NCBI GenBank assembly: GCA_903923905.1
Contig: CAIXZH010000117.1
Coordinates: 1 to 47,291 of the forward strand
Origin: an uncultured Bacteroidia bacterium
GTDB taxonomy: Bacteria; Bacteroidota; Bacteroidia; Bacteroidales; Prolixibacteraceae
DNA length: 47,291 nucleotides
Reading direction: 5' to 3'
Shown: positions 18,079 to 33,596 of the stretch, in pieces
How positions within the stretch are numbered: the first letter of the stretch is position 1
Layout of the letters: each line of letters opens with the position of its first letter
Position numbers and translations under genes: made by a program
The notes under the pieces: generated by a model
Seen by the model: only the letters and a program-made list of their open reading frames with translations
Told to the model about the DNA's origin: nothing
Database searches by the model: none

Positions 18079-19293
18079 ATGAACAAAGGCGTTTTTACTT
18101 TGATGATTGCTGGACTTTTAACCCTTGTCACAGCTAAAGCACAAGAACCAACAACCTGGCGTGGCCCGGGATCGAGTGGTAATTATTCCGAATCTGGTTT
18201 GCTAAAATCCTGGCCTGCAACAGGTCCTGAAATCGTCTGGCATTACGATGACCTTGGTGACGGATTTTCATCTCCGGTTTTTGCGAATGGGAAAATATAT
18301 GTATCGGCAGCGGTAAACAATGTAGGTTACATCTATGCATTGAGTTTGGATGGAAAACTGATATGGAAAGCGACTTATGGTGAGGAGTGGGTTGAAAATT
18401 ATCCGGGTGCCAGGGCAACGCCTTCAGTTGTCGGAGATATGCTATATATATATTCCGGGAATGGGGTGCTTACCTGCATGAATGCCAATAATGGCAATAT
18501 GTTCTGGAAAAAAGAGGTATTGAAGGATTTAAATGGAGAGAATATTACCTGGGGTGTAACCGAAACCTTAGTTATTGATGGTGATAAAATATTTGTAACT
18601 ACGGGTGGTCCTGTAAATAACGTTGTGGCACTTAACCGATTAAACGGACAGTTGATCTGGAGTAGTAAAGGTGTTGGTGAAAAATCGGCTTATTGTACCC
18701 CTTTGCTGGTAAAACTGCCATCGCGCAAATTGCTTGTTACCCATACCGAAAAGCATATCATCGGATTGGATGCAGAAACCGGAGTAATGCTCTGGTCTTA
18801 TGAACATACCAATCAGTGGGCGGTCCATGCCAATACTCCGATATTCTATCAAAACAGCCTCTTTTGCTTCAGCGGATATGGTCAGGGTGGAGTTAAACTT
18901 GATCTGAATGCTGATGGGAGTCAGGTTACAAAAGCATGGTTCAGCAAAAAGGTCGATTGCCGTATCGGCGGGGCAGTAGTTGTGGATGGATATATTTATG
19001 GATGTGGCGATAATACCAGAGATTGGCAATGTACCGACTGGAAAACAGGGGATCAGAAATATGCCTCTCAGGCAATTGCAAAAGGAAATGTCATTTCGGC
19101 TGATGGTATGTTGTTCTGTTATAGTGAAAAGGGTGAACTCGCGCTTGTTCCGGCAACACCTCAGGGATTTAACATCGCAGGTAAGGGGAAGGTTGAATTG
19201 GGAAGCGGACAACATTGGGCGCATCTTGTTATTAATAATAGCCAGCTTTTTGTCAGACACGGTAAATCATTAATTGCTTATAAGATAAAGTAA
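18079..19293 (+). CDS. Exported PQQ-like beta-propeller protein, tandem paralogue 1 (404 aa)
   Basis: The Sec signal peptide MNKGVFTLMIAGLLTLVTAKAQ is followed by the WRGPGSSGNYSESGLLKSWP opening typical of PQQ-like propeller proteins. Blade motifs of the form AxxLDGKLIWK, MNANNGNMFWK, LNRLNGQLIWS and LDAETGVMLWS recur about every 45-50 residues, consistent with a 7- or 8-bladed propeller. No heme c or vicinal-disulfide (CC) signature of PQQ alcohol dehydrogenases is visible, so it is probably a binding or scaffold protein and not a quinoprotein enzyme. It is the first of three consecutive paralogues. The databases' label polyvinylalcohol dehydrogenase for this type would be unsafe. Confidence 0.85.
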   Translation: MNKGVFTLMIAGLLTLVTAKAQEPTTWRGPGSSGNYSESGLLKSWPATGPEIVWHYDDLGDGFSSPVFANGKIYVSAAVNNVGYIYALSLDGKLIWKATYGEEWVENYPGARATPSVVGDMLYIYSGNGVLTCMNANNGNMFWKKEVLKDLNGENITWGVTETLVIDGDKIFVTTGGPVNNVVALNRLNGQLIWSSKGVGEKSAYCTPLLVKLPSRKLLVTHTEKHIIGLDAETGVMLWSYEHTNQWAVHANTPIFYQNSLFCFSGYGQGGVKLDLNADGSQVTKAWFSKKVDCRIGGAVVVDGYIYGCGDNTRDWQCTDWKTGDQKYASQAIAKGNVISADGMLFCYSEKGELALVPATPQGFNIAGKGKVELGSGQHWAHLVINNSQLFVRHGKSLIAYKIK

Positions 19294-19325
19294 TAGACTT
19301 TAAATATGTCAGTTCTTAGAATAAG

Positions 19326-19371
19326 TTCAAAACGGGAGAAATTGGAATAAAGACAATTCTCCCGTTTTGAA
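19326..19371 (+). terminator. Perfect 15-bp hairpin between propeller paralogues 1 and 2
   Basis: ttcaaaacgggagaa at 19326-19340 pairs perfectly with ttctcccgttttgaa at 19357-19371 around a 16-base loop whose edges (attg and caat) may extend the stem. No T-tract follows on the plus strand, so it may be a weak terminator, an attenuator or an mRNA-stabilising 3' structure setting differential expression within the array. Confidence 0.5.
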
Positions 19372-19391: not shown

Positions 19392-20633
19392 ATGAAGAAA
19401 TTATTTGTATTGTCCTTGATTTTGGGTTTTGCTTATTCCTCATTCAGCCAGGTCGTTCAGTGGAGAGGACCTAAGCGTGACGGTTATTTTAATGAATCCG
19501 GGTTACTGAAATCCTGGCCTGCCGAAGGGCCACAAATGATTCTGAAGGTCGAAAAGCTGGGTAAAGGCTATTCTTCACCGGTGGTCGCTAATCAAACGAT
19601 ATACATTACGGGAATGATCGATACCCTTGATTATCTGACAGCTGTGGATCTTCCGGGAAAGATCAAATGGCAGGTTCCGTATGGCAGATCCTGGTTAAAG
19701 TCATTCCCGGACACCCGTTCAACACCTACTGTCGAGGGTGATCGGATTTATGTGATAAGTGGATTGGGCAGACTAGTATGTATTGATACGGCCAGTGGAA
19801 AAGAGAACTGGGCTGTTGATGTGGATAAGGATTTTAAGGCAGAGTGGCATAACTGGGGTGTTTCCGAATCCCCTCTGATCGTTGATGATAAAGTGATCTG
19901 CACCCCCGGTGGCAATGAGACTACGGTGGTTGCATTCAATAAAATGACAGGAAAGCTGGTCTGGAAAAGCAAATCTGTTGGGGGTCCGAGGTCGTACGCT
20001 TCACCTACCATATACGAATATAAAAATTTCAGGTTTATCCTGGCTCTTACAGGCACTCACTTGGTGGCTCTCAATCCGGGGGATGGTTCAACGGCCTGGA
20101 GCTACAAGTATTTTAAACAAGAATTAATTGAGGATGATGATAAAGCACTGATCCTGACCAATACACCTGTTTTTAAAAAAGATGAGATTTTCCTCTCCAT
20201 GGGCTACGACTATCCTGCAATAATGTTGAAAATGGATTCTACTGGGACCTCGGTTAAGGAAAAATGGATAGACCATACCCTTGATAATCATCATCATGGT
20301 ATCATGGTTTCCGGTGATTATATGTATGGTTCAAACTGGATCAGTAATGGAAAAGGGAAATGGGTATGCATGAAATGGGATACCGGTGAAGTAAAATATG
20401 TTACTGACTGGATCAATAAAGGTTCGATTATCGGAGCCGACGATCTCTTTTATGTGTATGAAGAGAAGACGGGAACAGTCGGTTTAATTAAACCGAATCC
20501 CGAAAAATGGGAAGTGATCAGCTCATTTAAGGTGACAAACGGAGCAGGTCCTAACTGGGCTCACCCATTTATCAGTGATGGCAAACTCTACCTGAGACAT
20601 GGGGATGTTTTAATGGTTTATAATATTAAATAG
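19392..20633 (+). CDS. Exported PQQ-like beta-propeller protein, tandem paralogue 2 (413 aa)
   Basis: The signal peptide MKKLFVLSLILGFAYSSFSQ leads into WRGPKRDGYFNESGLLKSWP. Blades carry DLPGKIKWQ, IDTASGKENWA, FNKMTGKLVWKS and LNPGDGSTAWS motifs, and the closing stretch GPNWAHPFISDGKLYLRHGD is shared with paralogue 3 almost word for word. It is closer to paralogue 3 than to paralogue 1. It is predicted to be periplasmic or surface exposed, with no membrane helix beyond the signal and no heme motif. Substrate or partner is unknown; its position suggests a role with the exported Fe-S proteins encoded downstream. Confidence 0.85.
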   Translation: MKKLFVLSLILGFAYSSFSQVVQWRGPKRDGYFNESGLLKSWPAEGPQMILKVEKLGKGYSSPVVANQTIYITGMIDTLDYLTAVDLPGKIKWQVPYGRSWLKSFPDTRSTPTVEGDRIYVISGLGRLVCIDTASGKENWAVDVDKDFKAEWHNWGVSESPLIVDDKVICTPGGNETTVVAFNKMTGKLVWKSKSVGGPRSYASPTIYEYKNFRFILALTGTHLVALNPGDGSTAWSYKYFKQELIEDDDKALILTNTPVFKKDEIFLSMGYDYPAIMLKMDSTGTSVKEKWIDHTLDNHHHGIMVSGDYMYGSNWISNGKGKWVCMKWDTGEVKYVTDWINKGSIIGADDLFYVYEEKTGTVGLIKPNPEKWEVISSFKVTNGAGPNWAHPFISDGKLYLRHGDVLMVYNIK

Positions 20634-20738: not shown

Positions 20739-21983
20739 ATGAAATTATTACTGAGTTGCATGCTGATGTTATTGGTTACAGCAGCCGTTGGGCAGGAGAT
20801 TGTTCAGTGGCGTGGACCTTCACGTGATGGGATCTACCCTGATAAAAACCTGTTAAAGAAATGGCCGGAGGCGGGACCCGCTACTGATTTGGAAATTTCA
20901 GGATTTGGAAAAGGATATTCGCAACCAGTTGTTTGTAAGGATATTATTTATATTACAGGCATAAAGAAAGATTCAATGGATGTTATTTCGGCTTACGATT
21001 TATCAGGCAAAAGGCTATGGGATCAAGCCTATGGTCGTGCCTGGGTAAATTCATATCCCGATACCAGATGCACCCCTACCATCCAGGATGACAAGGTATA
21101 TCTCATTAGCGGAATGGGGGAAGTGTACTGTCTGAATGCCAAAAACGGGGAAAAATTATGGACCCAGGATGCTCAGACCCAGTTTAAGGGAGAGTATGGT
21201 CGCTGGGGAATTTCAGAATCTGTACTCCTCACTGACCAGGCAGCGCTTTATGTAACAGGGGGAAAAGAGACCACCGTTGTCGCTTTCGACAAGATTACCG
21301 GGAAGTTGCTTTGGAAAACCAGGAGTGTCGGAGGCGAAAGAGCATACGTTTCATCGCTGCTTATCGAACGAAATGGATTGAAAATCGTCCTCGCTGAAAC
21401 TGCCAATAACCTGATCGGGATAAATTCTGTTGATGGTGAAATCCTGTGGAATTTTGATCTCCAGCCTTTTGAACCAGGGAATATGGGGAAGGGAATTAAT
21501 CCGAACACCCCAATTTATCACGATGGGGATATTTTTGTTACAAGCGGGTATGATCATATTGCCGTGATGGTTTCACTTTCGGAGGATGGGAAATCGGTTA
21601 CTTTGAAATGGAAAAACGAGATTATGGATACCCAGATTGGCGGGGATGTACTCGTAGATGGTAATATTTTCGGTACCAACTGGGTCAGCAACAACAAAGG
21701 ACAGTGGGTCTCGGTGAACTGGGCAACTGGTAAAACGAATTGGGTAAAAGATTGGAATACAAAGGGTTCAATTATAGCTGCCGATGGTCTGCTCTATTGT
21801 TATGAAGAAAAAGGGGGAACTATTGCCCTTGTTCAGCCAGATTCGTCTGATTTTAAAATTATCAGTACCTTTAAATTTGAAGGTGGGGAAGGTCCATACT
21901 GGGCACATCCTGCTATTTATGATGGCAAATTGTATCTCAGACATGGAAATATCCTGCGCCGATATAATATAAAAGGAGCTTAG
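20739..21983 (+). CDS. Exported PQQ-like beta-propeller protein, tandem paralogue 3 (414 aa)
   Basis: The signal peptide MKLLLSCMLMLLVTAAVGQ precedes WRGPSRDGIYPDKNLLKKWP. Blade motifs DLSGKRLWDQ, LNAKNGEKLWT, FDKITGKLLWKT, INSVDGEILWN and NWATGKTNWVK are regularly spaced. It ends GPYWAHPAIYDGKLYLRHGN, as in paralogue 2. No heme or metal motif is seen. From here to 33596 the genes are packed with gaps of about 35 bp or less or with overlaps (except for the RAYT remnant), so this may be the first gene of the main operon. Likely role: periplasmic binding or scaffold propeller; enzymatic activity is unproven. Confidence 0.85.
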   Translation: MKLLLSCMLMLLVTAAVGQEIVQWRGPSRDGIYPDKNLLKKWPEAGPATDLEISGFGKGYSQPVVCKDIIYITGIKKDSMDVISAYDLSGKRLWDQAYGRAWVNSYPDTRCTPTIQDDKVYLISGMGEVYCLNAKNGEKLWTQDAQTQFKGEYGRWGISESVLLTDQAALYVTGGKETTVVAFDKITGKLLWKTRSVGGERAYVSSLLIERNGLKIVLAETANNLIGINSVDGEILWNFDLQPFEPGNMGKGINPNTPIYHDGDIFVTSGYDHIAVMVSLSEDGKSVTLKWKNEIMDTQIGGDVLVDGNIFGTNWVSNNKGQWVSVNWATGKTNWVKDWNTKGSIIAADGLLYCYEEKGGTIALVQPDSSDFKIISTFKFEGGEGPYWAHPAIYDGKLYLRHGNILRRYNIKGA

Positions 21984-22003: not shown

Positions 22004-23434
22004 ATGTTTCAACACAGGATTCTGAATATTGCTTTTTATTCCATCTCTTTGGTCGCGATAGTGGCTCTTCTATGGTGGCTGATGAGGGATCCTACGTCAA
22101 AATTCACCGAAAGTTTACCCGGTCTCGATAAAAGGGGAGTGGCCGATACTGTATCTGAAAATGTGGATATTGGAAAGATATTTGAAACCAATAACCTGAT
22201 ATATAAGGAGATGACGGAATCCTGGAGTCGTTTTCGCGGAAATGATTATGATAATATCTCAAAATCTCAGGTCAAATTAAAGGAAAAATTTGGTCCGAAA
22301 GGTCCTGATATCCGGTGGTCAATTCCTCTGGGTGAGGGACACTCGGGAGCCGCCATATACAAAGGTTTGGTTTATGTCCTTGATTACAATGAGAAGGAGA
22401 AGGCAGATCTCCTGCGCTGTATATCACTTTCAGATGGCAAGGAGTTATGGAAGAGGGGGTATCATGTTACGATTAAACGGAATCATGGTATGTCAAGGAC
22501 CATTCCGGTTATTACTGAAAAATATATCGTGACTATGGGACCACGCTGTCACGTCATGTGTCTCGACCGGCTTACCGGAAATTTCCGGTGGGGACTTGAT
22601 GTTGCACGGGAGTATTCCTCGGAAATCCCATTTTGGTATACAGGCCAATGCCCCTTAATTGACAATGATGTGGCAGTCATAGCAACCGGGGGAAAAAAGG
22701 CATTGATTATCGGTATCAGTTGTGAAACAGGTAAGAAATTATGGGAAACACCCAATCCTGAAGGTTGGAAGATGTCACATTCTTCCATTATGCCATTCAA
22801 TTTTGGGAGTCGGAAAATGTATGTATACAGTGCAATTGGCGGTTTGGCTGGTATTGCAGCCGATGGTCCGGATGTCGGAAAGGTACTCTGGAAAACCGCT
22901 GCATGGAACCATTCGGTGGTAGCACCTTCACCAGTGTGTATGCCTGACGGAAAAATTTTCATAACTGCCGGTTATGGAGCCGGTGCCATGTTGCTACAAC
23001 TTAAAGGAAATGGCAGTAACTTTACCATTAATGTTTTGCAACAGTATCTTCCGCGTTTCGGACTGGCCTGTGAACAACAAACACCTGTTTATTGGGAAGG
23101 ACATCTATTCGCAATACTTCCTAAGGATGCCGGATCACTGCGTAATCAATTTGTCTGCGTCGATCCATCCGATTGTAAGAAAATAGTTTGGTCGAGTGGT
23201 CAGTCTACCCGTTTCGGACTAGGTCCTTACTTTATTGCGGATAATAAATTTTTTATTCTCGACGATGAAGGAACCCTTACAATCGCAAAACCGAGCGTTG
23301 CCAAGTACATCCAGCTTGATCGGGTAAAAGTGATCAAGGATGGCGCGGATGCCTGGGCACCAATGGCAATTGCCAATGGATATTTAGTGTTAAGAGATTC
23401 AAAAACAATGATTTGTATCAATATGAACATTTAA
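22004..23434 (+). CDS. Membrane-anchored PQQ-like beta-propeller protein (476 aa)
   Basis: Residues 9-27 (IAFYSISLVAIVALLWWLM) form an uncleaved anchor, followed by a linker of about 45 residues and then a WSRFRGNDYDNIS opening equivalent to the WRGP motif. Propeller blades include SLSDGKELWKR, LDRLTGNFRWG, SCETGKKLWET and GKVLWKTAAW. It is more diverged than the three upstream paralogues and carries extra Cys (GPRCHVMCLD, GQCPLI). The topology places the propeller in the periplasm, tethered to the inner membrane where the NapH-like protein would sit. Starts 20 bp after paralogue 3. Confidence 0.82.
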   Translation: MFQHRILNIAFYSISLVAIVALLWWLMRDPTSKFTESLPGLDKRGVADTVSENVDIGKIFETNNLIYKEMTESWSRFRGNDYDNISKSQVKLKEKFGPKGPDIRWSIPLGEGHSGAAIYKGLVYVLDYNEKEKADLLRCISLSDGKELWKRGYHVTIKRNHGMSRTIPVITEKYIVTMGPRCHVMCLDRLTGNFRWGLDVAREYSSEIPFWYTGQCPLIDNDVAVIATGGKKALIIGISCETGKKLWETPNPEGWKMSHSSIMPFNFGSRKMYVYSAIGGLAGIAADGPDVGKVLWKTAAWNHSVVAPSPVCMPDGKIFITAGYGAGAMLLQLKGNGSNFTINVLQQYLPRFGLACEQQTPVYWEGHLFAILPKDAGSLRNQFVCVDPSDCKKIVWSSGQSTRFGLGPYFIADNKFFILDDEGTLTIAKPSVAKYIQLDRVKVIKDGADAWAPMAIANGYLVLRDSKTMICINMNI

Positions 23435-23443: not shown

Positions 23444-24412
23444 ATGAAGAACAAAGGTATCGTCATCTTTCTGATCTCATTGGCAATAGTTATAATTGTG
23501 GTTGTTACCATCGATTATATCTCTTCTAAACCCGGTGAGCTTCCCGCGAATCCTTATGCCCTTGGTATGGATCTATTCTCTCGGACTGACACGGCGTTGA
23601 TTATGTTCAATGAAAAGCGGAACCTGACCATTAACTTCTCCGAACCAACAGGATTATGCATTAGCAATGGAAAAATCTTCGTTGTTGGCGATCAGAAGCT
23701 GCAAATCATCGAACCAAACGGGAACTTATTGAAAGAAATCAATTTCGAGCTGAAACCAACGTGTGTTTTTGCATCACCAGATAACATTTATATTGGATTT
23801 CGTAAATCGTTAACAATACTGAATCGTGAAGGATTGAAAATTGCCAATTGTAATTCTTTTTCAGACAGCACGGTAATCACCTCGATTACTGAAAGATCGG
23901 GAATTATTTTTGTTGCAGATGCCGGAAAGCGAATTGTGCGTAAATTCGACCAAACCGGCAAACCGGTGGGAGAAATTGAAGGTAAATCGGGGAATGACCA
24001 GATTCACGGATTTATCATTCCAAGTCCCTATTTTGATCTGGCTTTTAATTCGGACGGTGATTTATGGATTGTTAATCCTGGCAAACATTCTTTGGAAAAT
24101 TATACCCCTGATGGGAAACTTCGGACATGGTGGAAGGCAACCTCTGTAAGAATTGAAGGATTTAGCGGATGTTGTAATCCGGCACATTTTGCATTTTTAC
24201 CCGATGGCAGTTTTGTGACAAGTGAAAAAGGGATGATACGGATAAAGGTCTATAAGCCTTCAGGTGAATTTCTTGACGTTGTGGCCGATCCTTCAAAATT
24301 TAAAGACAATGTTCATGCGCCTGATGTTGCGGTAGACGGTCTAGGAAATATTTATGCACTGGATATTGATCGGAAAATGATAAGACTATTTGTAAAAAAA
24401 GAGAACCGATGA
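23444..24412 (+). CDS. Membrane-anchored NHL-type six-bladed propeller protein (322 aa)
   Basis: An N-terminal hydrophobic anchor (residues 5-24, IVIFLISLAIVIIVVVTIDY) is followed by NHL/SMP-30-like repeats: EPTGLCISNGKIFVVG, NREGLKIANCNSFSD, FDQTGKPVGEIEG, YFDLAFNSDGDLWIVNPG, AHFAFLPDGSFVTSEKG and APDVAVDGLGNIYALD. Six blades fit the length. A GCCNPAHF segment with vicinal Cys lies in blade five and recalls similar CC motifs in other redox-cluster propellers; whether it is functional is unknown. The stop overlaps the next start (ATGA), implying coupled translation with the small RR/Cys4 protein. Confidence 0.82.
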   Translation: MKNKGIVIFLISLAIVIIVVVTIDYISSKPGELPANPYALGMDLFSRTDTALIMFNEKRNLTINFSEPTGLCISNGKIFVVGDQKLQIIEPNGNLLKEINFELKPTCVFASPDNIYIGFRKSLTILNREGLKIANCNSFSDSTVITSITERSGIIFVADAGKRIVRKFDQTGKPVGEIEGKSGNDQIHGFIIPSPYFDLAFNSDGDLWIVNPGKHSLENYTPDGKLRTWWKATSVRIEGFSGCCNPAHFAFLPDGSFVTSEKGMIRIKVYKPSGEFLDVVADPSKFKDNVHAPDVAVDGLGNIYALDIDRKMIRLFVKKENR

Positions 24413-24609
24413 ACAGAAGAGATGTTATCCGGCAAACCGGGCGTGTAGTGATATTATCGGGAATCGGATTGCTTAGCATATTTCTTGCCACAAACCAGAA
24501 AGTGGTGACTCCCGAAAATTGTTCGGTTTCACCATTATGCAGAAATTGTGGCAAATTCAGGAAATGTGAATTACCACAGGCAAATAAGGAGAGGAGCCAT
24601 GGAAAATAA
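24409..24609 (+). CDS. Small RR-signal protein with four-Cys C-terminus (66 aa)
   Basis: MNRRDVIRQTGRVVILSGIG gives a twin-arginine N-terminus (R3, R4) with a hydrophobic segment at about 13-28, resembling a Tat signal anchor. The remaining 38 residues hold C38, C44, C47 and C53, spaced Cx5Cx2Cx5C, suitable for one [4Fe-4S] cluster or a metal site. It overlaps the upstream gene by four bases and the downstream ferredoxin by 11, so it is real despite its size. A minimal periplasmic electron-transfer or assembly subunit is the most economical idea; the family is otherwise unknown to me. Confidence 0.75.
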   Translation: MNRRDVIRQTGRVVILSGIGLLSIFLATNQKVVTPENCSVSPLCRNCGKFRKCELPQANKERSHGK

Positions 24610-25174
24610 TCCTAAAAACAGCAGACGGGAATTTATCAGGAAGGGATCACGCATATCCTTACTGCTCACTCTTGGAGCGGTTGGAGGATTTTCAGCAAGG
24701 AATATTACTCATGAAAAATATGTCTGGCAAATCGATCCATTCAAATGCACCCAATGTGGACGGTGTGCAACTTCATGCGTGATGACCCCTTCGGCGGTGA
24801 AGTGTCTGCATGCCTATGACCTGTGCGGTTATTGTGACTTGTGCGGCGGATATCTCAAACCGGACCCGAATAAACTTTCAACTGCTGCTGAAAATCAGCT
24901 CTGTCCAACTTCAGCAATCCAGCGAAAATATATTGAAGAACCTTATTTTGAATATGTTATCAATGAAGATCTCTGCATTGGCTGTGCGAAATGCGTGAAG
25001 GGATGTACTTCTTTTGGAAACGGTTCTCTTCATTTGCAGATTATTCACCGGATATGTTTGAATTGCAACGAGTGTTCCATCGCGAGGCTTTGTCCATCAG
25101 ATGCCATATCCCGGGTTAGGGCGAGCAAGCCATATCTGGTTAAAGGAAGTTTCACCAACGATGCAAAGGGCTGA
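24599..25174 (+). CDS. Tat-exported polyferredoxin (191 aa)
   Basis: Start 24599 is chosen over the in-frame 24548 because it is preceded by a strong aaggagagg site and begins a clean Tat signal, MENNPKNSRREFIRKGSR, with the hydrophobic core LLLTLGAVGGF. The mature part has CTQCGRCATSC, CGYCDLCGG, CIGCAKCVKGC and CLNCNECSIARLCP motifs plus extra CP, enough for three or four [4Fe-4S] clusters, as in periplasmic electron-shuttle subunits (PsrB/NrfC type). It probably passes electrons between the NapH-like membrane protein encoded next and a periplasmic partner. The stop is one base before the next ATG. Confidence 0.85.
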   Translation: MENNPKNSRREFIRKGSRISLLLTLGAVGGFSARNITHEKYVWQIDPFKCTQCGRCATSCVMTPSAVKCLHAYDLCGYCDLCGGYLKPDPNKLSTAAENQLCPTSAIQRKYIEEPYFEYVINEDLCIGCAKCVKGCTSFGNGSLHLQIIHRICLNCNECSIARLCPSDAISRVRASKPYLVKGSFTNDAKG

Positions 25175-25175: not shown

Positions 25176-26438
25176 ATGAAAAATTGGATTAAATTAACGC
25201 TGATATTCACTTTGCTATTCTACAGTCTGGCAGGTGTTGCTCAGCAGCAACGATTTCCCAAACCTGAATTTGGTACCGGGTATCATCAGCCAACTCCGGT
25301 AACTCCTGAGCCGCGTGCTTTGGTCCTCGAATATTCCGATGTTGTCATTTTGCTGATTGTCCTTTCGCTGGCCAGTTGGTTGGCTTTGAGAAAACGGTCA
25401 CGGAAGGGGATGCTTTGGTTATCTGTATTCACCCTGCTCTATTTTGGGTTCTACCGGAACGGATGTATTTGTGCGATTGGTTCAGTTCAGAATGTGGCAC
25501 TTACCATTTTTGATCCGGGTTATGCAATTTCCATTACCACTTTGCTCTTTTTTCTCCTGCCATTGGTTTTTACCCTGTATTTCGGGAGAACCTTTTGTGC
25601 GGGTGCCTGTCCGTTGGGAGCGATTCAGGATTTATTGATAATTAAACCTTTATCTTTCCCTGATTGGCTTCGCAAAACTTTAGGTCTCCTTCCATATCTG
25701 TATCTGTCGCTGGCAGTTTTGTTCGCTGCCACCGGCACTGATTTTATTATTTGCCGCTATGATCCGTTTGTCGGAATATTCAGGATGGATGCTCCTTTTC
25801 ATATGGTCATCCTCGGAATTGCATTTTTATTGATGGGGATGTTTGTGGCCCGTCCTTATTGCCGGTTTTTATGTCCCTATGGTGTCCTGCTAAACTGGAT
25901 GTCCAGGTTTTCCAAATGGCATCTGGCAATCACGCCGGCTGCATGCATTCAATGTAAACTGTGTTCCGATTCCTGTCCGTTTGATGCAATCGATTATCCG
26001 ACAGACGAGAAACAAATAAAAAACAGAATCTGGGGAGTGAATCGCTTTTTGTTTTATGCCCTGCTGATCCCGATCTGGATCCTGGTTGGCGGATATACAG
26101 GATCAAAAGCACATACCTGGATCTCAAAAGCGAATTCCAAAGTTTATCTGGCTGAACTTCTGATTACTAAACCTGAAGTTCGGAATGATGATAAAAATCT
26201 TGACGTTCAGGCCTTCCTAAGTTCAGGAAAATCGATGGAAACTCTTGTGAATGAGGCATCAGTAATCCGTCACAAATTTTATATCGGGTGCTGGATAGCA
26301 GGTGGGTTTATGGGACTGGTCATCGGAATGACGTTGCTAAGCCAGGTGATTTATCGAAGAAAAGAAGACTATCAACCGGATAAAGGAAACTGTTACAGCT
26401 GTGTAAGATGCATCAGTTATTGTCCGGTAAAAAAATAA
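25176..26438 (+). CDS. NapH-like membrane [4Fe-4S] electron-transfer protein (420 aa)
   Basis: ATG 25176 (MKNWIKLTLIFTLLFYSLAG) gives a signal-like N-terminus; 25161 is also possible. Several membrane helices follow, with the two CxxxCP motifs of the NapH/NosR/CcoG family: C141AGAC145P and C229RFLC233P. A ferredoxin motif at C257, C260, C263, C267 and a second, incomplete-looking CYSCVRCISYCP at the very C-terminus complete it. An extra YRNGCICAIGSVQN loop precedes the first CxxxCP. Family members move electrons from quinol across the inner membrane to periplasmic Fe-S proteins. Here the partner is probably the Tat polyferredoxin encoded immediately upstream. Confidence 0.85.
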   Translation: MKNWIKLTLIFTLLFYSLAGVAQQQRFPKPEFGTGYHQPTPVTPEPRALVLEYSDVVILLIVLSLASWLALRKRSRKGMLWLSVFTLLYFGFYRNGCICAIGSVQNVALTIFDPGYAISITTLLFFLLPLVFTLYFGRTFCAGACPLGAIQDLLIIKPLSFPDWLRKTLGLLPYLYLSLAVLFAATGTDFIICRYDPFVGIFRMDAPFHMVILGIAFLLMGMFVARPYCRFLCPYGVLLNWMSRFSKWHLAITPAACIQCKLCSDSCPFDAIDYPTDEKQIKNRIWGVNRFLFYALLIPIWILVGGYTGSKAHTWISKANSKVYLAELLITKPEVRNDDKNLDVQAFLSSGKSMETLVNEASVIRHKFYIGCWIAGGFMGLVIGMTLLSQVIYRRKEDYQPDKGNCYSCVRCISYCPVKK

Positions 26439-26460: not shown

Positions 26461-28281
26461 ATGGAAAATGATGCTAAACTGAAGTTATTCCTCAATATTG
26501 CTCTTGTTTCTGGCATATTTTGCCTGACTGTAGCCTTATTACTGCTTTTAAATTATATGCAGATGACAAAGAATAAGCCACTTGAAAGCAAGGCGCTTAC
26601 ATCATTAGTTAAACAACTTAGTCAGGAACCTAACAGCGATGAGCTTAAACAGGAGATACGTGATTTTGATTTATTGGCCCGGAAGGCTTATTTTAACAGC
26701 CAATGGCAGGTCAAGACCGGAGGTTATCTTCTGTTATTCGGGGCAATTGTTCTGGCATTCGCATTACGGGTTATTATTGGTTTAAGATCTAAAATAGAAG
26801 AACCAGATATTCTGGATTCTAACGAGATGGTTGGCCGATTATTGACCCAGCGATGGGTATTATTAACAGGTGCAATACTGGTTATCCTTGGTCTGGTGGC
26901 TTCTTATGCTTCTGTAGACCATCTCAGGGAATATTCGGTTAACGATTCTTCGCCAAATTTGAAAATAGCTGACAATCGCGATAAGATTGAAGTGATTCAG
27001 GTAGGTCAGGCTCCCACGGTTGCCGATTCGGCAAAAACCTCCTCAGTAAAACCAACTGTTTCTTTAGGTTCTTCGCTACCTGTCAAAGTTACTCAGGCGC
27101 CGGCAGTAAAAGTAAGTTTCCCCGGGTTAGCTGAGATTAAATCGAATGTTCCTTCGTTCCGGGGACCATTCGGAAATGGTGTTTTTTACCAAAAAGAGAC
27201 TCCGGTTTCATGGGATGCTGCTTCCGGTAAAAATGTGATCTGGAAAACCCCTGTTCCATTAAAGGGATATAATTCTCCGATTATCTGGGGTACTAAGTTA
27301 TTCCTGTCAGGAGCTGATAATCATTCGCGTGAGGTTTATTGTTACGAAAGGAATACAGGTAAGATACTTTGGAAACAGCCGGTGGATAAGATTAAGGGTA
27401 GTCCTGAAGCAGCGCCGAAGGTTACTGAGGATACAGGCTACTCTGCCCCTTCGCTTACCACCGACGGGAATAGGGTCTATGCAATGTTTGCAACCGGCGA
27501 TATTATCTGCTTTGATATGGATGGTAATCGCATCTGGGCCAGAAACCTTGGTGTTCCGGATAACCATTATGGACATGCCTCTTCCCTTATGATGCTGAAA
27601 GACAAATTATTCGTTCAGTATGATACCAACAAGAGCAGGAAACTGATTGGGCTAAAAGCATCCACAGGGCAGACGGCATGGGAAACCCAACGGAAAGGAA
27701 AAATTTCGTGGGCTAGTCCTATTCTGGCAGAGATCAATGGAAAATATCAGGTTGTGTTGTCAACAGATCCGATGGTAGCCGGTTATGATGCAGATTCCGG
27801 AAAGGAACTCTGGTCATTGAATTGTATGATGGGTGAGGTGGGTCCCTCACCGGCTTTTGGCAGCGGACTGATCTTTGCAGCCAATGAATATGCAAAACTG
27901 GTGGCCATTGATCCTGTAAAAAATGTAAAAGTTTGGGAAAGTGATGAATACATGCCTGAAGTCGCAAGTCCTGTAACTGCGAATGGCTTACTTTTTATTG
28001 CAACCAGTTATGGCGTTATCGCCTGCTATGATGCAAAATCGGGTCAGAAGTATTGGGTAAAGGAAGACGGCACCGGATTCTATTCTTCTCCGGTAATTGT
28101 TGATAATAAGCTTTATACATTTAATACTGCCGGAAAAATGAAGGTTTTTGAAGTGGGAAAAACCGAGAAGATTCTTGGCGAAGGAGATGCAGCAGAAAAA
28201 GTTACCACAACTCCGGCTTTTAAGGACGGCCGGATGTACCTAAGAACTCCGAAATTCATTTATTGCATCGGCAAAAAGTGA
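26461..28281 (+). CDS. Polytopic-anchor PQQ-like beta-propeller protein (606 aa)
   Basis: The N-terminal 160 residues contain three membrane helices (about 9-30, 86-105, 137-155; e.g. GYLLLFGAIVLAFALRV), a Pro/Val/Ser-rich linker of about 60 residues, then PSFRGPFGNGVFYQKETPVS and a complete PQQ-like propeller with ERNTGKILWKQ, LKASTGQTAWE, YDADSGKELWS and YDAKSGQKYWV blade motifs. The architecture differs from the other propellers and suggests an integral subunit of the membrane complex. It lies 22 bp after the NapH-like gene and 33 bp before the diaphorase fusion, so it is cotranscribed with both. No heme or catalytic Cys pair is visible. Confidence 0.85.
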   Translation: MENDAKLKLFLNIALVSGIFCLTVALLLLLNYMQMTKNKPLESKALTSLVKQLSQEPNSDELKQEIRDFDLLARKAYFNSQWQVKTGGYLLLFGAIVLAFALRVIIGLRSKIEEPDILDSNEMVGRLLTQRWVLLTGAILVILGLVASYASVDHLREYSVNDSSPNLKIADNRDKIEVIQVGQAPTVADSAKTSSVKPTVSLGSSLPVKVTQAPAVKVSFPGLAEIKSNVPSFRGPFGNGVFYQKETPVSWDAASGKNVIWKTPVPLKGYNSPIIWGTKLFLSGADNHSREVYCYERNTGKILWKQPVDKIKGSPEAAPKVTEDTGYSAPSLTTDGNRVYAMFATGDIICFDMDGNRIWARNLGVPDNHYGHASSLMMLKDKLFVQYDTNKSRKLIGLKASTGQTAWETQRKGKISWASPILAEINGKYQVVLSTDPMVAGYDADSGKELWSLNCMMGEVGPSPAFGSGLIFAANEYAKLVAIDPVKNVKVWESDEYMPEVASPVTANGLLFIATSYGVIACYDAKSGQKYWVKEDGTGFYSSPVIVDNKLYTFNTAGKMKVFEVGKTEKILGEGDAAEKVTTTPAFKDGRMYLRTPKFIYCIGKK

Positions 28282-28314: not shown

Positions 28315-30654
28315 ATGATTGAACAGAATAAAATAGATTCTATCATTTCGGAAAAGGGGAGGACCAGGACAGCTTTAATTCCTATCCTTCAGGCGATTCA
28401 ACGCGAATTTAACTATTTGCCTGAAGAAGCTTTACGAAGGGTTAGTGAAACCACTGATATAAAACCAGCAGAAATAATAGGTGTTGCCAGCTTCTATTCT
28501 CAATTCCGTCTGGCACCTGTTGGTCAGCATATGGTTCGGGTCTGTGTGGGGACTGCATGCCATGTTAAGGGAGCCAGTCAGGTTTATGACTCGCTGCGAA
28601 GGGCCTTCAAACTTAAAGATGGTCAGCATACAGACCTTTCCGGAAAATATACAATCGAAAAAGTCAGTTGCCTGGGATGTTGCACATTAGCCCCTGTTGT
28701 TCAAATTGATCATGTAACTTATGGTCATGTTACTTCCGATAAGGCGGATCAGATCATCAAGGATTTTGAGAACCTGAAGGTTAATAAGAATAAGAGTCTC
28801 TTTCGTAAAGTGGACGGTACCGAAATACTTGGGGAGATTAGGATTGGCCTTGGATCATGTTGTGTGGCAAGTGGGAGCAGTGATATTAAAGATGCGGTTG
28901 AAAATACGATCAATCAATCCGGTTTGCAGGTTAAGCTTAAGAGTGTCGGTTGCGTTGGGATGTGTCACCAGGTACCTCTCGTTGAAATTGTTCCGGTCAA
29001 CGGGGAGACAACCCTTTATTCCAAAGTGAAGCCAGAAGATATCAAGCAGATTGTTGAAAATCACTTCAAACCTTCAGGACGATTCTCGAGGTTGAAAAAT
29101 AAATTTCTAAATGCCATCGAAAACATACAAACCGACCAGAAATGGAATGGGATTGAGAGGTATGAGCTTGATATCCGCGAGAAACATGTCTCCTCGTTTC
29201 TTGGCAAGCAATTTCCGATTGCAACCGAACACAGAGGTTTAATCAATCCTTTGGATTTAGATGAATATCAGCAACATGGAGGATTTTTGGCATTAAAAAA
29301 AGTTTTTAAAGAGTTTACTCCCACGAAGGTAATCGAAAAGATCAAAACGAGTGGAATCCGGGGTCGGGGAGGAGCCGGATTTCCTACCGGGATTAAATGG
29401 GAACTTGTTTCAAAACAAACGAGTGAAGAAAAATACCTGATTTGTAATGGGGATGAAGGTGATCCGGGCGCATTTATGGATCGTATGTTGCTGGAATCAT
29501 ATCCTTACCGTGTGATTGAAGGGATGATTATTGCCGCTTACGCCGTAAATACGCGCGAAGGGTATTTTTATATTCGTGCTGAATACCCCCTCGCAGTAAA
29601 AAGAATCAGGGCTGCTCTTGAAATATGTAAGGATAATAACCTGATTGGTAATAATATACTAGGATCTGGTTTTGATTTCAATGTTAAAGTTTATGAAGGG
29701 GCAGGGGCATTCGTCTGCGGTGAGGAAACTGCGCTCATTCAATCCATCGAGGGGAACCGGGGATTTCCCCATTTAAGGCCACCTTTCCCCGCAGTCAAGG
29801 GGTTATTTGGTCTGCCTACGTTAGTAAATAACACGGAAACCTTTGCCCAGATCTCCTTTATTATGCGCGACAGTGTCGATCGGTTTACCCGCATTGGGAC
29901 AGAGAAAAGCAAGGGTACAAAAGTTTTTGCCCTGGCAGGAAAAGTTGCACGTGGTGGATTGATCGAAGTACCCATGGGAATGACCATTCGCCAGATCGTA
30001 GAAGAAATTGGAGGCGGAATAGCAAACGGCCGGAAATTTAAAGCGGTTCAGATAGGTGGCCCTTCGGGTGGTTGTATTCCGGCAAGCCTTCAGGATACAC
30101 CCATTGATTATGAATCTCTTAACAGTCTTGGTGCCATGATGGGCTCTGGTGGATTGATTGTTCTCGACGATACCGATTGCATGGTGGATATTGCCCGTTT
30201 CTTTCTATCATTTACCCAGGACGAATCATGTGGTAAATGCACATTTTGTCGCGTCGGGACAAAAAGAATGCTGGATATACTGGATAACCTGACCCAGGGA
30301 AAAGGAAAACCTGGCGATTTGGAGAAGCTTGAGAAGCTGGCTGAGTGGACGAAAAAAGGTTCTCTTTGCGGTCTGGGCAGGTCGGCTCCCAATCCGGTGT
30401 TGAGCACCCTGAAATATTTCAGGGATGAATATGAAGCGCATTTAAATGGTGTTTGTCAAACCGGTAAATGTATTCCGTTAATAAATTATTCTATAACAGA
30501 TGATTGCATTGGCTGTACCTTATGTGTTCAGCGGTGCCCCGTGGCTGCAATACATTTTCAGCCCCATGAAAAACACATGATTAATAAAGATTTATGTATC
30601 AAATGTGATGCCTGCCGGCAAGTGTGTCCGACGAATGCTGTTGTAGTGGGATAA
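28315..30654 (+). CDS. NuoE-NuoF-type NADH diaphorase fusion with C-terminal ferredoxin (779 aa)
   Basis: Four modules are visible. Residues 1-155 form a NuoE-like thioredoxin-fold domain with [2Fe-2S] Cys C77, C82, C119 and C123. Residues 170-245 form a second such domain (LGSCCVAS, VGCVGMCHQ). Residues 290-700 are NuoF-like, with the glycine-rich G350RGGAGFP nucleotide site, the NGDEGDPGAFMDR FMN/NADH motif and cluster ligands C639, C642, C645 and C685. Residues 730-779 carry two [4Fe-4S] motifs (CIGCTLCVQRCP, CIKCDACRQVCP). This matches the electron-input modules of bifurcating hydrogenases and transhydrogenases (HydAB, Hnd, Stn), with NuoE and NuoF fused into one chain. It oxidises or reduces NAD(H) in the cytoplasm. 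The likely partner is the flavoprotein at 30940; no hydrogenase is present. Confidence 0.9.
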   Translation: MIEQNKIDSIISEKGRTRTALIPILQAIQREFNYLPEEALRRVSETTDIKPAEIIGVASFYSQFRLAPVGQHMVRVCVGTACHVKGASQVYDSLRRAFKLKDGQHTDLSGKYTIEKVSCLGCCTLAPVVQIDHVTYGHVTSDKADQIIKDFENLKVNKNKSLFRKVDGTEILGEIRIGLGSCCVASGSSDIKDAVENTINQSGLQVKLKSVGCVGMCHQVPLVEIVPVNGETTLYSKVKPEDIKQIVENHFKPSGRFSRLKNKFLNAIENIQTDQKWNGIERYELDIREKHVSSFLGKQFPIATEHRGLINPLDLDEYQQHGGFLALKKVFKEFTPTKVIEKIKTSGIRGRGGAGFPTGIKWELVSKQTSEEKYLICNGDEGDPGAFMDRMLLESYPYRVIEGMIIAAYAVNTREGYFYIRAEYPLAVKRIRAALEICKDNNLIGNNILGSGFDFNVKVYEGAGAFVCGEETALIQSIEGNRGFPHLRPPFPAVKGLFGLPTLVNNTETFAQISFIMRDSVDRFTRIGTEKSKGTKVFALAGKVARGGLIEVPMGMTIRQIVEEIGGGIANGRKFKAVQIGGPSGGCIPASLQDTPIDYESLNSLGAMMGSGGLIVLDDTDCMVDIARFFLSFTQDESCGKCTFCRVGTKRMLDILDNLTQGKGKPGDLEKLEKLAEWTKKGSLCGLGRSAPNPVLSTLKYFRDEYEAHLNGVCQTGKCIPLINYSITDDCIGCTLCVQRCPVAAIHFQPHEKHMINKDLCIKCDACRQVCPTNAVVVG

Positions 30655-30695
30655 TTTTTTATTGTATATTTAGATGTAAAAAAGAAAAAATCCGA

Positions 30696-30932: not shown

Positions 30933-30939
30933 AAAATTA

Positions 30940-32484
30940 ATGGTCCAAATTACAATAAACGGTCACAAAATAAATGTTGATGAAGGAACCCCGGTAATAA
31001 AAGCAGCCGAAATGGCAGGATTTAAGGTTCCATCGCTTTGTTACAATGAGGAATTAGGCCATTTTACATCATGCATGTTGTGTCTTGTGAAGGATGACAG
31101 TAATAGCCAGTTGATTCCATCATGCTCAGTAACTGCAACAGAAGGCATGTCTGTCACCACTGAAGATGCGGAGATCAGGGAGGCCCGGCAGACCGGACTG
31201 GAACTTCTTCTAAGCGAACATGTTGGTGATTGTCAGGGACCATGCCAGGTAGCCTGCCCGGCACATATGAATATTCCTCAAATGAACAGGTTGATTGCAG
31301 CTGGTAAATTTGAAGCCGCGTTGAAACTGGTCAAAAAAGATATTGCATTGCCTGCAGTTTTAGGACGAATTTGTCCGGCACCCTGCGAAGGAGCCTGTCA
31401 CCGGCGAACTGTGGACTCTTCGGTATCGATTTGTTTGTTAAAGCGGTTTGTGGGTGATGAAAATGACCTGTATCCTTTTGAACCGCTTCCCCTTTCCGGG
31501 AAAAGAGTCGCCGTAATCGGTGCCGGACCTGGGGGATTGGCTGCCGCATATTATTTACAGTTAAATGGTTATCAAACTGTACTTTTTGATAAGGAGAGCT
31601 GCGCCGGAGGACTTCTTCGCACTAATATCGACCCGGAATTGCTGCCAGCCTCTGTTTTGGACAAAGAGATCAACACAATATTAAGTACAGGAGTCATATT
31701 TAAGGGAGAAACTGAGATCGATGCTTTGTTTTTTCAACAGATTCAAAATGAATATGATGCAGTTGTTGTGGCAACAGGAGCTTTAGTTGATGAAATCAGG
31801 AACTGGGGATTTATAACTCATCCCAAGGGAATTGAGGCTGACAGAAACAGCTACGAAACCTCCTTGAAGGGAGTATTCGCTATCGGCAATACGTTGCGTT
31901 TTTCACGGATGTCAGTTCGTCCAATTGGTCAGGGTAAGGAGGTGGCATGGTCAGTATCCCAATATCTGGCAGGCGAAGTGCCAAAGGGAGAGCCACAGCT
32001 ATTCAATTCGCGGTTCGGAAAGTTGATTTATCAAGAGATATCGGAATATCTTAAGGAATCGGTTCCTTATAACAAAGTATCTTCAGATCAGGCAAATTCA
32101 AACGGATATACGCAGGAAGAAGCTATTCGGGAAGCCCTGAGATGTCTTCATTGCGATTGCAGGGATATTGATAATTGCAAATTGAGAGATTTATCCGGCC
32201 GTTATAAGGCAAATCAAACTCGTTATGCAGGAAATGAAAGGAAAGCGATGACCAAGCATTTTACCAGTTCGATCGTTTACGAACCCTTAAAATGTATCAA
32301 ATGCGGTATCTGTGTCAGAATGACTTCCAAATACCAGGAAAAATTTGGATTCTCCTATATTGGCCGTGGATTTGATGTTGTGATCGGGGTGCCATTTAAT
32401 GAATCTGTTCAATCAGGATTGGCCTTAACAGCAGAAATCGTGGCAAGAGCATGCCCAACAGGAGCCCTATCAGTAAAAGATTAA
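30940..32484 (+). CDS. 2Fe-2S/GltD-like flavoprotein lacking the NAD(P)H insert (514 aa)
   Basis: Residues 1-70 are a NuoG-type [2Fe-2S] ferredoxin with C34, C45, C48 and C62. Next come GltD-type [4Fe-4S] ligands C98, C102, C106 and C145, C149, C153 (GRICPAPCEGAC), then the FAD fingerprint VIGAGPGGLAAAYYLQ (G194-G199). GltD proteins normally have a second GxGxxA nucleotide domain of about 120 residues between VVVATGA (275-281) and GVFAIGNT (311-318). Here only about 30 residues lie between. A C-terminal CIKCGICVR completes it. FAD should bind, but NADPH should not, so electrons probably come from the NuoEF fusion. It resembles a simplified StnC/NfnB-type subunit. Confidence 0.88.
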   Translation: MVQITINGHKINVDEGTPVIKAAEMAGFKVPSLCYNEELGHFTSCMLCLVKDDSNSQLIPSCSVTATEGMSVTTEDAEIREARQTGLELLLSEHVGDCQGPCQVACPAHMNIPQMNRLIAAGKFEAALKLVKKDIALPAVLGRICPAPCEGACHRRTVDSSVSICLLKRFVGDENDLYPFEPLPLSGKRVAVIGAGPGGLAAAYYLQLNGYQTVLFDKESCAGGLLRTNIDPELLPASVLDKEINTILSTGVIFKGETEIDALFFQQIQNEYDAVVVATGALVDEIRNWGFITHPKGIEADRNSYETSLKGVFAIGNTLRFSRMSVRPIGQGKEVAWSVSQYLAGEVPKGEPQLFNSRFGKLIYQEISEYLKESVPYNKVSSDQANSNGYTQEEAIREALRCLHCDCRDIDNCKLRDLSGRYKANQTRYAGNERKAMTKHFTSSIVYEPLKCIKCGICVRMTSKYQEKFGFSYIGRGFDVVIGVPFNESVQSGLALTAEIVARACPTGALSVKD

Positions 32485-32486
32485 TT

Positions 32487-33596
32487 ATGAGGATATTACT
32501 ATTTTTAGTGTTGATTTTGGATTTTCTCCTAAGTGCGAATGGGCAAACTTTTGAGAGCTGGAGCAACTTTCGCGGCAGTCAGAACCTTCTAGGTGTAACT
32601 CAGGTTAACTTTCCTGCTAAACCACGGTTACTTTGGAGCTATCAGATTGGCGATAATATTAAATCAGCAGCTGTGATTGCTGACGGGAAAATAGTTGTCG
32701 GCGGAACAGATGGTGTGGTATATTGTCTTGATCTAAAAGGCAAACTGCTTTGGAAATATAAAACCGAGAATTCAATTGAAGCGCCTGCCCTTATTCTGAA
32801 TAACAAGGTATTTGTTGGAAACCTCGATGGCAATCTGTTTGCCCTGAAACTTTCCAATGGAACACTAATCTGGAAATATAAGACCGATAACCAGATAATG
32901 GGATCTGCAAATTATTGGAAATCAAAATCTAAAACATGGTTAATTGTAGGAAGTTACGATTATAATCTACATTGTGTGGATGCGCTAACGGGCAAAATGA
33001 AGTGGAGATACGAATCGGATAATTTCATTAATGGTGAAGCTGCCTGTTTTAACGGAAAGGCAATATTTGGAGGTTGTGACGGTTTTCTTCACATTATTAA
33101 TATTGAAAGTGGTAAGCCCGAGTCTAAGATAAATGTGGCAACTTATGTTGCCGGATCATGTCCGGTAAGTGATTATATGGCTTATATCGGCGATTACGAT
33201 GGTAAATTTTCAAAAGTTGATATTAAAACCGGAAAAATAATCTGGAGTTGGGAGAACAAAGAGTTAAAACAACCGTTTATAGCTTCAGCATCTTTATCAG
33301 GTGATCAGGTAGTTTCGGGTAATCGCGATAAATTTGTTTATTGCTTTGATAAAAATTCGGGAAAGCTAACCTGGAGTTTTAATAGTGGAAGCAGGGTAGA
33401 AGCTTCACCGATTATTATTAATGATAAAGTGTTAGCAGCCAATATGCGTGGAGATCTTGCCTTAGTTAAACTTTCGGATGGTTCCCTGATCTGGAAATAT
33501 GAAGTGGGCAATGCGATTCTACATAATCCGGCTGTAATCGAAAATTTAATGATCGTCTGTTCTTTAAACGGCACGTTATATTGTTTTGGAAAATAG
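32487..33596 (+). CDS. Exported PQQ-like/BamB-type beta-propeller protein (369 aa)
   Basis: ATG 32487 is chosen because it begins the Sec signal MRILLFLVLILDFLLSANGQ two bases after the upstream stop; the longer frame from 32451 overlaps that gene. The mature protein starts FESWSNFRGSQNLLG and has very regular blades ending LLWKYKT, LIWKYKT, MKWRYES, IIWSWEN, LTWSFNS and LIWKYEV, each about 40 residues apart, fitting seven or eight blades as in BamB. It is probably secreted or periplasmic. It is the last of the six PQQ-like propellers and closes the redox array, 81 bp before the glycosyltransferase gene. Confidence 0.85.
   Translation: MRILLFLVLILDFLLSANGQTFESWSNFRGSQNLLGVTQVNFPAKPRLLWSYQIGDNIKSAAVIADGKIVVGGTDGVVYCLDLKGKLLWKYKTENSIEAPALILNNKVFVGNLDGNLFALKLSNGTLIWKYKTDNQIMGSANYWKSKSKTWLIVGSYDYNLHCVDALTGKMKWRYESDNFINGEAACFNGKAIFGGCDGFLHIINIESGKPESKINVATYVAGSCPVSDYMAYIGDYDGKFSKVDIKTGKIIWSWENKELKQPFIASASLSGDQVVSGNRDKFVYCFDKNSGKLTWSFNSGSRVEASPIIINDKVLAANMRGDLALVKLSDGSLIWKYEVGNAILHNPAVIENLMIVCSLNGTLYCFGK

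Follow-up and report, generated by a model that had tools for sequence, protein, structure and literature searches.

Electron-bifurcating enzymes of the Bfu family are numerous, and 17 of 57 BfuB clades were without an assigned function in 2022 (PMC9304861). The described members closest to the locus reported here are the Nfn/Stn-type enzymes, namely StnABC of Sporomusa ovata and the archaeal Nfn-Bfu (clade 53), and the Nuo-Bfu and Mbh-Bfu, whose BfuABC core lies in a larger predicted membrane-linked cluster (PMC9304861). On the membrane and periplasmic side the closest systems are NapGH, NosR and the flavinylated NapH-like proteins, in which a PF12801 membrane Fe-S protein and a polyferredoxin are combined with a periplasmic partner; NapH-like clusters with the pyrroloquinoline quinone (PQQ)-type ExaA or with NirS are known from the same source (PMC8238504). 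We analysed a single contig of 47,291 bases (the window; CAIXZH010000117.1 of assembly GCA_903923905.1) from the 5.4 Mb, 119-contig genome of an uncultured Prolixibacteraceae bacterium, in which genes for a Bfu-type diaphorase, a NapH-like Fe-S relay and a series of heme-free propellers lie together in what appears to be a conserved redox unit, some 15 genes in size and present in at least three phyla. We found no description of this gene set in the literature searched (supplements, most subscription papers and preprints lay outside that search), and a term search for NapH, PQQ and propeller in the main texts of PMC9304861 and PMC11406978 returned none.

All genes from 10429 to 38922 lie on the plus strand, and each is an open reading frame (ORF) at the coordinates given below. 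Genome contigs were scanned with patterns of the window's NapH-like protein (25176..26438); 102 stretches matched and 80 loci were confirmed, a set that leans towards relatives of the window because the patterns derive from its own NapH. These loci come from Mariniphaga, Draconibacterium, Maribellus, Tangfeifania, Bacteroidales, Cytophagales, Cyclobacteriaceae, Candidatus Hydrogenedentota and one Verrucomicrobia metagenome-assembled genome (MAG; G504), those nearest to the window being from Mariniphaga sp. and other Prolixibacteraceae or Bacteroidia MAGs. A simple script that takes the longest reading frame supplied the ORFs of the relatives, and synteny was scored by tblastn because some GC-rich loci gave wrong-strand ORFs. 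Each gene was counted only in loci with enough flank, so that 6 to 34 of the 80 fell out per gene, whether or not it was present there. Beside the NapH-like gene stand the polyferredoxin (24599..25174) in 74/74 loci, the PQQ-like propeller PQQ5 (26461..28281) in 71/71, a NuoE-NuoF fusion (28315..30654) in 60/60 and a GltD-like protein (30940..32484) in 51/51; the propeller PQQ4 (22004..23434) accompanies NapH in 60/61 and an NHL propeller (23444..24412) in 68/69, the latter counted within 2 kb. A Cys4-type ORF (C-X(3-8)-C-X2-C-X(3-8)-C), represented in the window by 24409..24609, lies between the NHL gene and the polyferredoxin in 64 of 71 loci, Hydrogenedentota included, and is present in nine of 14 Verrucomicrobia loci. 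The outer propellers are more variable: PQQ1 (18079..19293) occurs within 10 kb upstream of NapH in 39/46 loci, PQQ2 (19392..20633) in 38/46, PQQ3 (20739..21983) in 21/46, that is, in part of the lineages, and PQQ6 (32451..33596) in 38/47. Gene order is conserved far above chance, and for nine partner genes the distance matrices follow that of NapH (correlation r 0.91-0.97), with none of 500 permutations as high. A preliminary description of the locus had named conserved synteny beforehand as its check; we find that synteny in Bacteroidota, Hydrogenedentota and Verrucomicrobia, and the linkage of propellers to Fe-S genes on which the description depended holds in a fixed order with counts of 51/51 to 74/74.

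Co-occurrence among genomes follows the same pattern. In 101 genomes, the window's own and its relatives up to the order, NapH orthologs (E below 1e-100) are found in 53 and PQQ5 (E 1e-60) in 52, all of these among the 53; PQQ5 is in none of the 48 genomes without NapH, and in the sole NapH-positive genome that lacks it (G017) NapH sits at a contig end. Within an even draw of 395 Bacteroidota-phylum genomes, in which few of those listed belong to the window's own order, only the window's own genome matches NapH at E 1e-50 (0/394 others). In the phylum of the Verrucomicrobia MAG G504, NapH-like genes occur in 46 of 288 genomes, G504 included. We examined 20 of these 46, hand-chosen to include a divergent group, and fractions among them are not estimates: the NuoE-NuoF fusion adjoins NapH in 15 of the 20, and six loci (L191-L196) carry one co-directional series of terpene-cyclase genes (block A, below), PQQ4, NHL, polyferredoxin, NapH, PQQ5, the NuoE-NuoF fusion and the GltD-like protein, an order that PQQ6 and the ABC and FtsX genes then close in five of the six.

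The preliminary description had proposed a cytoplasmic NuoEF-GltD pair, and both proteins are present, but it missed what they are. Judged by sequence, 'NuoEF' is the fused BfuC-BfuB (hereafter BfuCB) of the electron-bifurcating Bfu family, comprising NuoE, a Trx-like Fe-S domain, NuoF and 2[4Fe-4S]. Its top PDB matches are NfnB (9n5u), 9bov_B, 8oh5_B, NiFe-Bfu (7t2r_B) and HydB (7q4v_B); 8oh5 is treated as Stn on the strength of its chain C, whose 1172 residues equal the length given for StnC (PMC10482914). Conservation was read from alignments of one ORF per locus, window included, each more than 0.85 times as long as the window protein. The B2 ligands of NiFe-Bfu BfuB (C438, C476, H525, C531 and C536; PMC9304861) map through the 7t2r_B alignment to C622, T660, H709, C714 and C719, of which C622, H709 and C714 are conserved in 66/66 rows and C719 in 65/66, while position 660 is Thr in 36, Cys in 25 and Val in five of the 66. 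This Thr/Cys variation fits the exchange of Cys and Thr at B2 described in that source, according to which the three Cys, the Cys/Thr and the His of B2 are absent from non-bifurcating homologs (PMC9304861). Ligands of the B1 [4Fe-4S] cluster (C639, C642, C645, C685) and of the BfuC C1 [2Fe-2S] cluster (C77, C82, C119, C123) are present in 66/66 rows, the eight Cys of clusters B3 and B4 each in 64/66 with two rows gapped, and the flavin mononucleotide (FMN)/NADH domain is above cut-off for PF01512 and PF10589. At the position of the B5 [2Fe-2S] cluster, in the N-terminal Trx-like domain, four Cys are conserved in 65-66 of 66 rows, with altered spacing in the window; StnB is described with one [2Fe-2S], B2 (PMC10482914).

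The 'GltD' partner is, by alignment, an Nfn/Stn-type BfuA without a domain for NADP(H); some genomes encode it without the flavin domain too. It consists of a NuoG-type N-terminus, 4Fe-4S domains and a remnant flavin adenine dinucleotide (FAD) domain: residues 2-282 match 9bov_A 4-288 and residues 271-510 match 425-671, so that relative to 9bov_A, NfnA and 8oh5_C some 136-148 residues are missing between the halves of the FAD region. In the layout given in PMC10482914, StnC binds NADP(H) in the region that is missing. All 56 BfuA rows that pass the length filter measure 451-545 aa, and 19 Fe-S ligand positions are each conserved in 54-56 of them. The flavin domain is absent in G031 (335 aa) and G083 (327 aa), and there is no GxGxxG in L185 (438 aa) or L198 (347 aa). 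Because orthologs have lost the NADP(H) domain and some the flavin domain as well, what remains would be an Fe-S conduit. In L191-L196 a single ORF (973-1040 aa) takes in the matches to both BfuCB and BfuA, in support of a joint function. The locus therefore resembles the Nfn/Stn enzymes in the homology and diagnostic ligands of BfuB and BfuC and in a BfuA with a NuoG-type N-terminus and a GltD-type Fe-S/FAD region, and is unlike them in that the NADP(H) domain is missing from 56 aligned orthologs and the flavin domain from several others, and that BfuC is fused to BfuB and linked to a NapH-like membrane protein and propellers (compare PMC9304861). We reject an Nfn/Stn transhydrogenase because the NADP(H) domain is missing from BfuA. 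The BfuABC core in a larger membrane-linked cluster recalls Nuo-Bfu and Mbh-Bfu; no complex-I-like pump or hydrogenase genes are seen here, and a NapH/NapG-like relay leads towards the periplasm instead (compare PMC9304861). As the diaphorase pair belongs to the Bfu family, ferredoxin is probably a second substrate. A BfuA without its own substrate site needs a partner, for which the NapH-like protein would be the best candidate in the unit.

Domain calls agree with the Tat (twin-arginine translocation) polyferredoxin, the NapH-like protein and the Cys4 protein that the preliminary description had named. The NapH-like protein matches PF12801 and has 15 invariant Cys (n=75), including two CX2CX2CX3CP sites; the Tat-type, NapG-like polyferredoxin has Fer4 matches and 17 invariant Cys (n=67); the Cys4 microprotein carries an RR motif, one helix and CX5CX2CX5C. 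Similarity of the first two to NapH, NosR and NapG is weak and far under the cut-offs of those families, the NapH-like protein scoring 37.1 of the 213.05 bits required by TIGR02163 and 30.1 of 234 bits for NF007013 (curated NapH/MauN models). The arrangement of PF12801 protein, polyferredoxin and periplasmic partner is that of the NapGH, NosR and flavinylated NapH-like systems; unlike the flavinylated systems it has no FMN-binding domain, with no such family at E 0.01 among 20 window proteins searched against Pfam (the glycosyltransferase, ABC and FtsX proteins left out), no terminal reductase is seen in it, and its electron source is apparently Bfu and not quinol (compare PMC8238504). A divergent operon in G033 (L157 8804-13085) encodes a phosphonate-binding-type lipoprotein, a polyferredoxin (39%), a NapH-like protein (33%) and a DUF4369-NHL protein with GCCNP; it ties the NHL protein to the relay, and may perhaps be an ancestral or parallel version of the relay. 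Another NapH-like gene, in L158 and L159 (G059, G048), is accompanied by a ~425-aa unannotated protein, a polyferredoxin (with nine Fer4 stretches in L159) and an ArsP-type permease, the set lying directly 3' of what we take to be an NQR operon.

Six PQQ-like propellers had been described, and PF13360 is above cut-off at all six positions (18079, 19392, 20739, 22004, 26461 and 32451), as PF01436 bears out the NHL propeller at 23444. By hydropathy, 19392, 20739, 22004, 23444 and 32451 each show one N-terminal segment and 26461 shows three, and in 18079 no segment exceeds the threshold that was set. PQQ1 is presumably secreted, PQQ2, PQQ3 and PQQ6 (of ACSF4/BamB type, also above cut-off for PF13570) are predicted to be secreted, PQQ4 has a single anchor, the NHL protein is membrane-anchored and PQQ5 has a three-helix anchor. 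The absence of heme proteins stands, there being no CxxCH in any of 23 proteins checked, and on these grounds we reject extracellular electron transfer by hemes for this unit. The accompanying statement that the propellers lack CC motifs is correct for the six PQQ-like proteins and fails for the NHL protein, whose C243-C244 is present in 67/67 aligned rows and whose GCCNP recurs in 14/14 Verrucomicrobia loci. The pattern FxGCCNP occurs at 39 places in 35 of 61 genomes, of which 32 are on contigs with the NapH cassette, one is in G033 and one in G076 (NapH context not looked at), and the five remaining places have no such NHL gene in the stretch examined. In the PDB the NHL protein has only generic NHL relatives. 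None of five propellers tested (PQQ3 left out) reaches the PQQ-dehydrogenase cut-off, with at most 72.1 of 480.05 bits for TIGR03075. The PQQ4 model (predicted local distance difference test, pLDDT, 89) shares its fold with BamB, tetrathionate hydrolase and a PQQ alcohol dehydrogenase. Like BamB and tetrathionate hydrolase, which are PQQ-like propellers without PQQ, PQQ4 has this fold, and unlike them, with 11-16% identity among the matches listed, it stands in a fixed redox gene context. Many of its polar residues (R159, N160, H161, Q215, H259, E357, Q358, Q359, K374, D375) are invariant in 24 rows, more than a scaffold should need, which favours binding or catalysis; PQQ4 is probably an enzyme or a cofactor binder.

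The borders originally proposed for the system (18079-33596) prove too narrow. Block A (10429-16851) and a glycosyltransferase/ABC/FtsX group (33678-38922) belong to the unit. Block A begins with an Fe-S protein (10429..11331) that has a ferredoxin domain with Cys motifs (PF00037 above cut-off, other Fer4 models and HdrA2/PorD-like matches below), and whose conservation starts near residue 48, leaving its start codon uncertain. It continues with a radical S-adenosylmethionine (SAM), SPASM-like protein (11291..12523; PF04055 E 3.8e-15, PF13186 marginally under cut-off) with a conserved CNLxCxGCW (n=15), a fusion of DUF116 and polyprenyl diphosphate synthase (12589..14184; PF01976, PF00348), a prenyltransferase/cyclase-type toroid protein kept in the block (14147..15025; PF00432) and a squalene-hopene-cyclase-like class II cyclase (15055..16851; PF13243, PF13249). 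The cyclase retains its catalytic DxDD (n=20) and the synthase its HDDxxD (n=14); the cyclase scores 94 bits with the squalene-hopene model TIGR01507 (cut-off 431.1). The order of block A is the same in all 12 covering loci of a first set, among them L122, which covers three of the five genes, in order, and it recurs in L178 and L191-L196; exceptions are L177 (G504), with the cyclase ~2.5 kb away on the opposite strand, and L188, with no radical SAM match between the neighbours. Block A abuts the propeller block in G031, G083 and G057. Its DUF116-synthase marker (E 1e-40) is present in 35 of the 101 genomes, 35/53 with NapH versus 0/48 without (Fisher p 3.9e-14, phylogeny not corrected). Downstream, a GT4-type glycosyltransferase (33678..34958; NCBIfam matches all below cut-off) is kept in 35/46 loci and a LolD-like ATP-binding cassette (ABC) ATPase (35003..35677; TIGR02211 236 bits, cut-off 307.75) in 23/46, a count lowered by locus ends; an FtsX/MacB-type permease (35674..38922; TIGR03434 below cut-off) comes after the ABC gene in Bacteroidota, Hydrogenedentota and Verrucomicrobia loci. 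These travelling terpene-cyclase and export genes, like the identity of BfuCB and BfuA, the loss of the NADP(H) domain and the invariant CC of the NHL protein, are missed by the preliminary description. The link to a terpene-cyclase block is not confined to one phylum, and it also points to a bacterial lipid that is as yet unknown.

Taken together, these observations make it somewhat more probable than its negation that the locus encodes one redox system, in which BfuABC feeds a NapH/NapG-like Fe-S relay that serves heme-free periplasmic propellers. We infer the complex, the path of its electrons, their direction and every substrate. BfuC-BfuB and BfuA would exchange electrons with NAD(H) and ferredoxin at the FMN/Fe-S centre in the cytoplasm, and BfuA, without an NADP(H) site, would hand electrons of middle potential to the NapH-like protein at its ferredoxin domains in the cytoplasm. 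The membrane cysteines of this protein may then take them to the other side, where the polyferredoxin exported by Tat and the anchored Cys4 microprotein would in turn serve PQQ4, the NHL protein with its vicinal Cys pair, and PQQ5. We consider outward flow likelier than inward; NADH and reduced ferredoxin would then be confurcated to reduce something outside. The terpenoid of block A, the glycosyltransferase and the ABC/FtsX exporter would probably make and place a lipid that is acted on or needed. The core of the earlier proposal, an electron-transfer system joining NAD(H), a NapH-like protein and propellers, survives in this form, the Bfu identity, ferredoxin and the wider borders being what it missed. 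A more specific version, in which Bfu confurcates NADH and ferredoxin with a third substrate across the membrane, for energy conservation or biosynthesis, and the propeller-based heme-free chain handles a dedicated cyclic terpenoid from the linked cyclase genes, possibly a new membrane redox carrier, is speculative and on balance doubtful. If the redox-system reading is correct, bifurcation chemistry would lie upstream of a periplasmic reaction in a unit without c-type hemes, and a class of PQQ-like and NHL propellers would gain a function. One Bfu group would gain a concrete hypothesis with a membrane partner, the loss of the NADP(H) domain having removed the default answer. Draconibacterium orientale, Mariniphaga anaerophila and Maribellus species are cultured hosts of the unit.

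Several observations weigh against this reading. No acceptor or donor enzyme was recognised. The distance correlations partly reflect shared ancestry. BfuCB is not adjacent in five of the 20 Verrucomicrobia-phylum loci (L184, L186, L188, L190 and, at a contig end, L197): G611, G719 and G675 have a fused BfuCB and BfuA elsewhere in the genome, and in G628 and G522 the only homologs are unfused and of HydC/HydB type. Electron sources other than BfuCB may therefore serve the periplasmic half. The G033 operon is likewise without an adjacent Bfu, and with these loci it indicates that the membrane and periplasmic half can exist without a dedicated one. Spacing of the B5 Cys in the window differs from HydB, the first two being adjacent and not CX4C (CX4C is present in L193), and the fused BfuA parts of L191 and L193 keep fewer Fe-S motifs than others. 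The NapH model is poor (pLDDT 68.6), with no solved-fold match at E 0.001, and the Cys4 protein was not found in seven of 71 loci and five of 14 Verrucomicrobia loci. Quinol is believed to be the substrate of those NapH-like proteins that have been characterised (PMC8238504), so the quinone pool may take part. As to block A, 18 of the 53 cassette genomes lack its marker at E 1e-40, and a full-length DUF116-synthase is in none of nine Hydrogenedentota genomes.

The same two absences count against the likeliest of the alternatives, a biosynthetic or maturation machine in which low-potential electrons of the relay modify or reduce the block A terpenoid or mature an exported protein, the glycosyltransferase and ABC/FtsX proteins finish and place the product, and the respiratory look is incidental. 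The association of marker and NapH cited above, the single order of both blocks in six Verrucomicrobia loci, their adjacency in three further genomes and the conserved Asp motifs of cyclase and synthase all argue for it; because of the absences, block A is not needed everywhere, and we regard this alternative as a serious possibility, if a rather unlikely one.

An unlikely alternative is that the redox system runs in the opposite direction, a propeller oxidising its substrate and the electrons passing through polyferredoxin and NapH to be bifurcated by BfuABC to NADH and reduced ferredoxin. Bfu enzymes are held to be reversible (PMC9304861), known clusters combine NapH-like genes with the alcohol oxidase ExaA (PMC8238504), and the invariant polar residues of PQQ4 and the fold it shares with BamB, tetrathionate hydrolase and a PQQ alcohol dehydrogenase would suit such a role. 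Such flow would, however, require a donor near -400 mV if NADH and reduced ferredoxin are both to form, and judging from Table 1 of PMC9304861 few periplasmic substrates should be so low; the unit also contains no CxxCH protein, and its tested propellers (PQQ3 left out) remain below the PQQ-dehydrogenase cut-off.

It is improbable that the NapGH-like proteins form a quinol dehydrogenase for a periplasmic reductase encoded elsewhere, with the Bfu pair as a neighbour concerned with redox balance. PF12801, the weak NapH/NosR/NapG similarity, the quinol role thought for NapH-like proteins (PMC8238504) and the two genomes whose periplasmic half is without a dedicated fused BfuCB are consistent with this; against it, BfuCB accompanies NapH in every one of the 60 loci with enough flank, and BfuA has lost its own substrate domain and so needs a partner, of which NapH is the best candidate. 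A chance neighbourhood of unrelated genes, to which the several copies of PQQ-like propellers in these genomes lend a little, has next to no probability and is ruled out by the synteny, given the fixed order of Fe-S genes and PQQ5 across phyla, the one-to-one genome co-occurrence of NapH and PQQ5, and BfuC-B-A in one ORF.

The window genome has two [FeFe] hydrogenase genes and no rnfC at E 1e-40 or NrfA at E 1e-20, which fits a fermentative anaerobe and does not point to a substrate. As profile partners among the 101 genomes none of the three is clean, and we rejected them: in the window's genus none of the 18 genomes, with or without the cassette, carries rnfC or NrfA, hydrogenases occur in 82 of the 101, and control genomes matched in 4, 1 and 1 of 14 for rnfC, NrfA and hydrogenase. 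Outside the window's genus rnfC is present in 71 of 83 genomes.

An ArsP-type permease (16967..17980; PF03773 E 1.2e-74) between block A and PQQ1 resembles the SaoE and SO_0444 Cu/Zn efflux models, below cut-off, and is at this place in five of the 80 loci, all close to the window; it is probably accessory. In a Hydrogenedentota MAG (L098 17126-18315) an ArsG-type permease and an ArsF-type protein, above NCBIfam cut-offs, adjoin the cassette, the former with relatives in L104 and L109. What we take to be a histidine kinase and LytTR-type regulator pair occurs in ten loci (L042, L044, L047, L048, L049, L053, L056, L078, L103 and L110), between PQQ1 and PQQ2 in L048, and is a possible regulator. 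ArsP, ArsF/ArsG and this pair were dropped as core members, each being in part of the lineages only.

Gaps from 20739 onward had been described as short, and up to 33596 they are indeed at most 33 bp or overlaps, with the single exception of 285 bp between 30654 and 30940. This gap contains a transposase-like remnant (ORF 30624-30932) that presumably resembles a REP-associated (Y1-type) transposase fragment and has no Pfam or NCBIfam match; in relatives the gap between BfuCB and BfuA holds other ORFs, for example of 124 aa in L046 and 359 aa in L061. Upstream of the unit lie several large hypothetical proteins in a row (975-10252), of which the one tested (975-3551) has no Pfam match, and the lowest GC content in 2-kb windows (0.323) is at 1-2000. 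After FtsX, a thioesterase (39036-39449) is above the cut-off of the general YbgC/FadM model TIGR00051, its best NCBIfam match being MenI, below cut-off.

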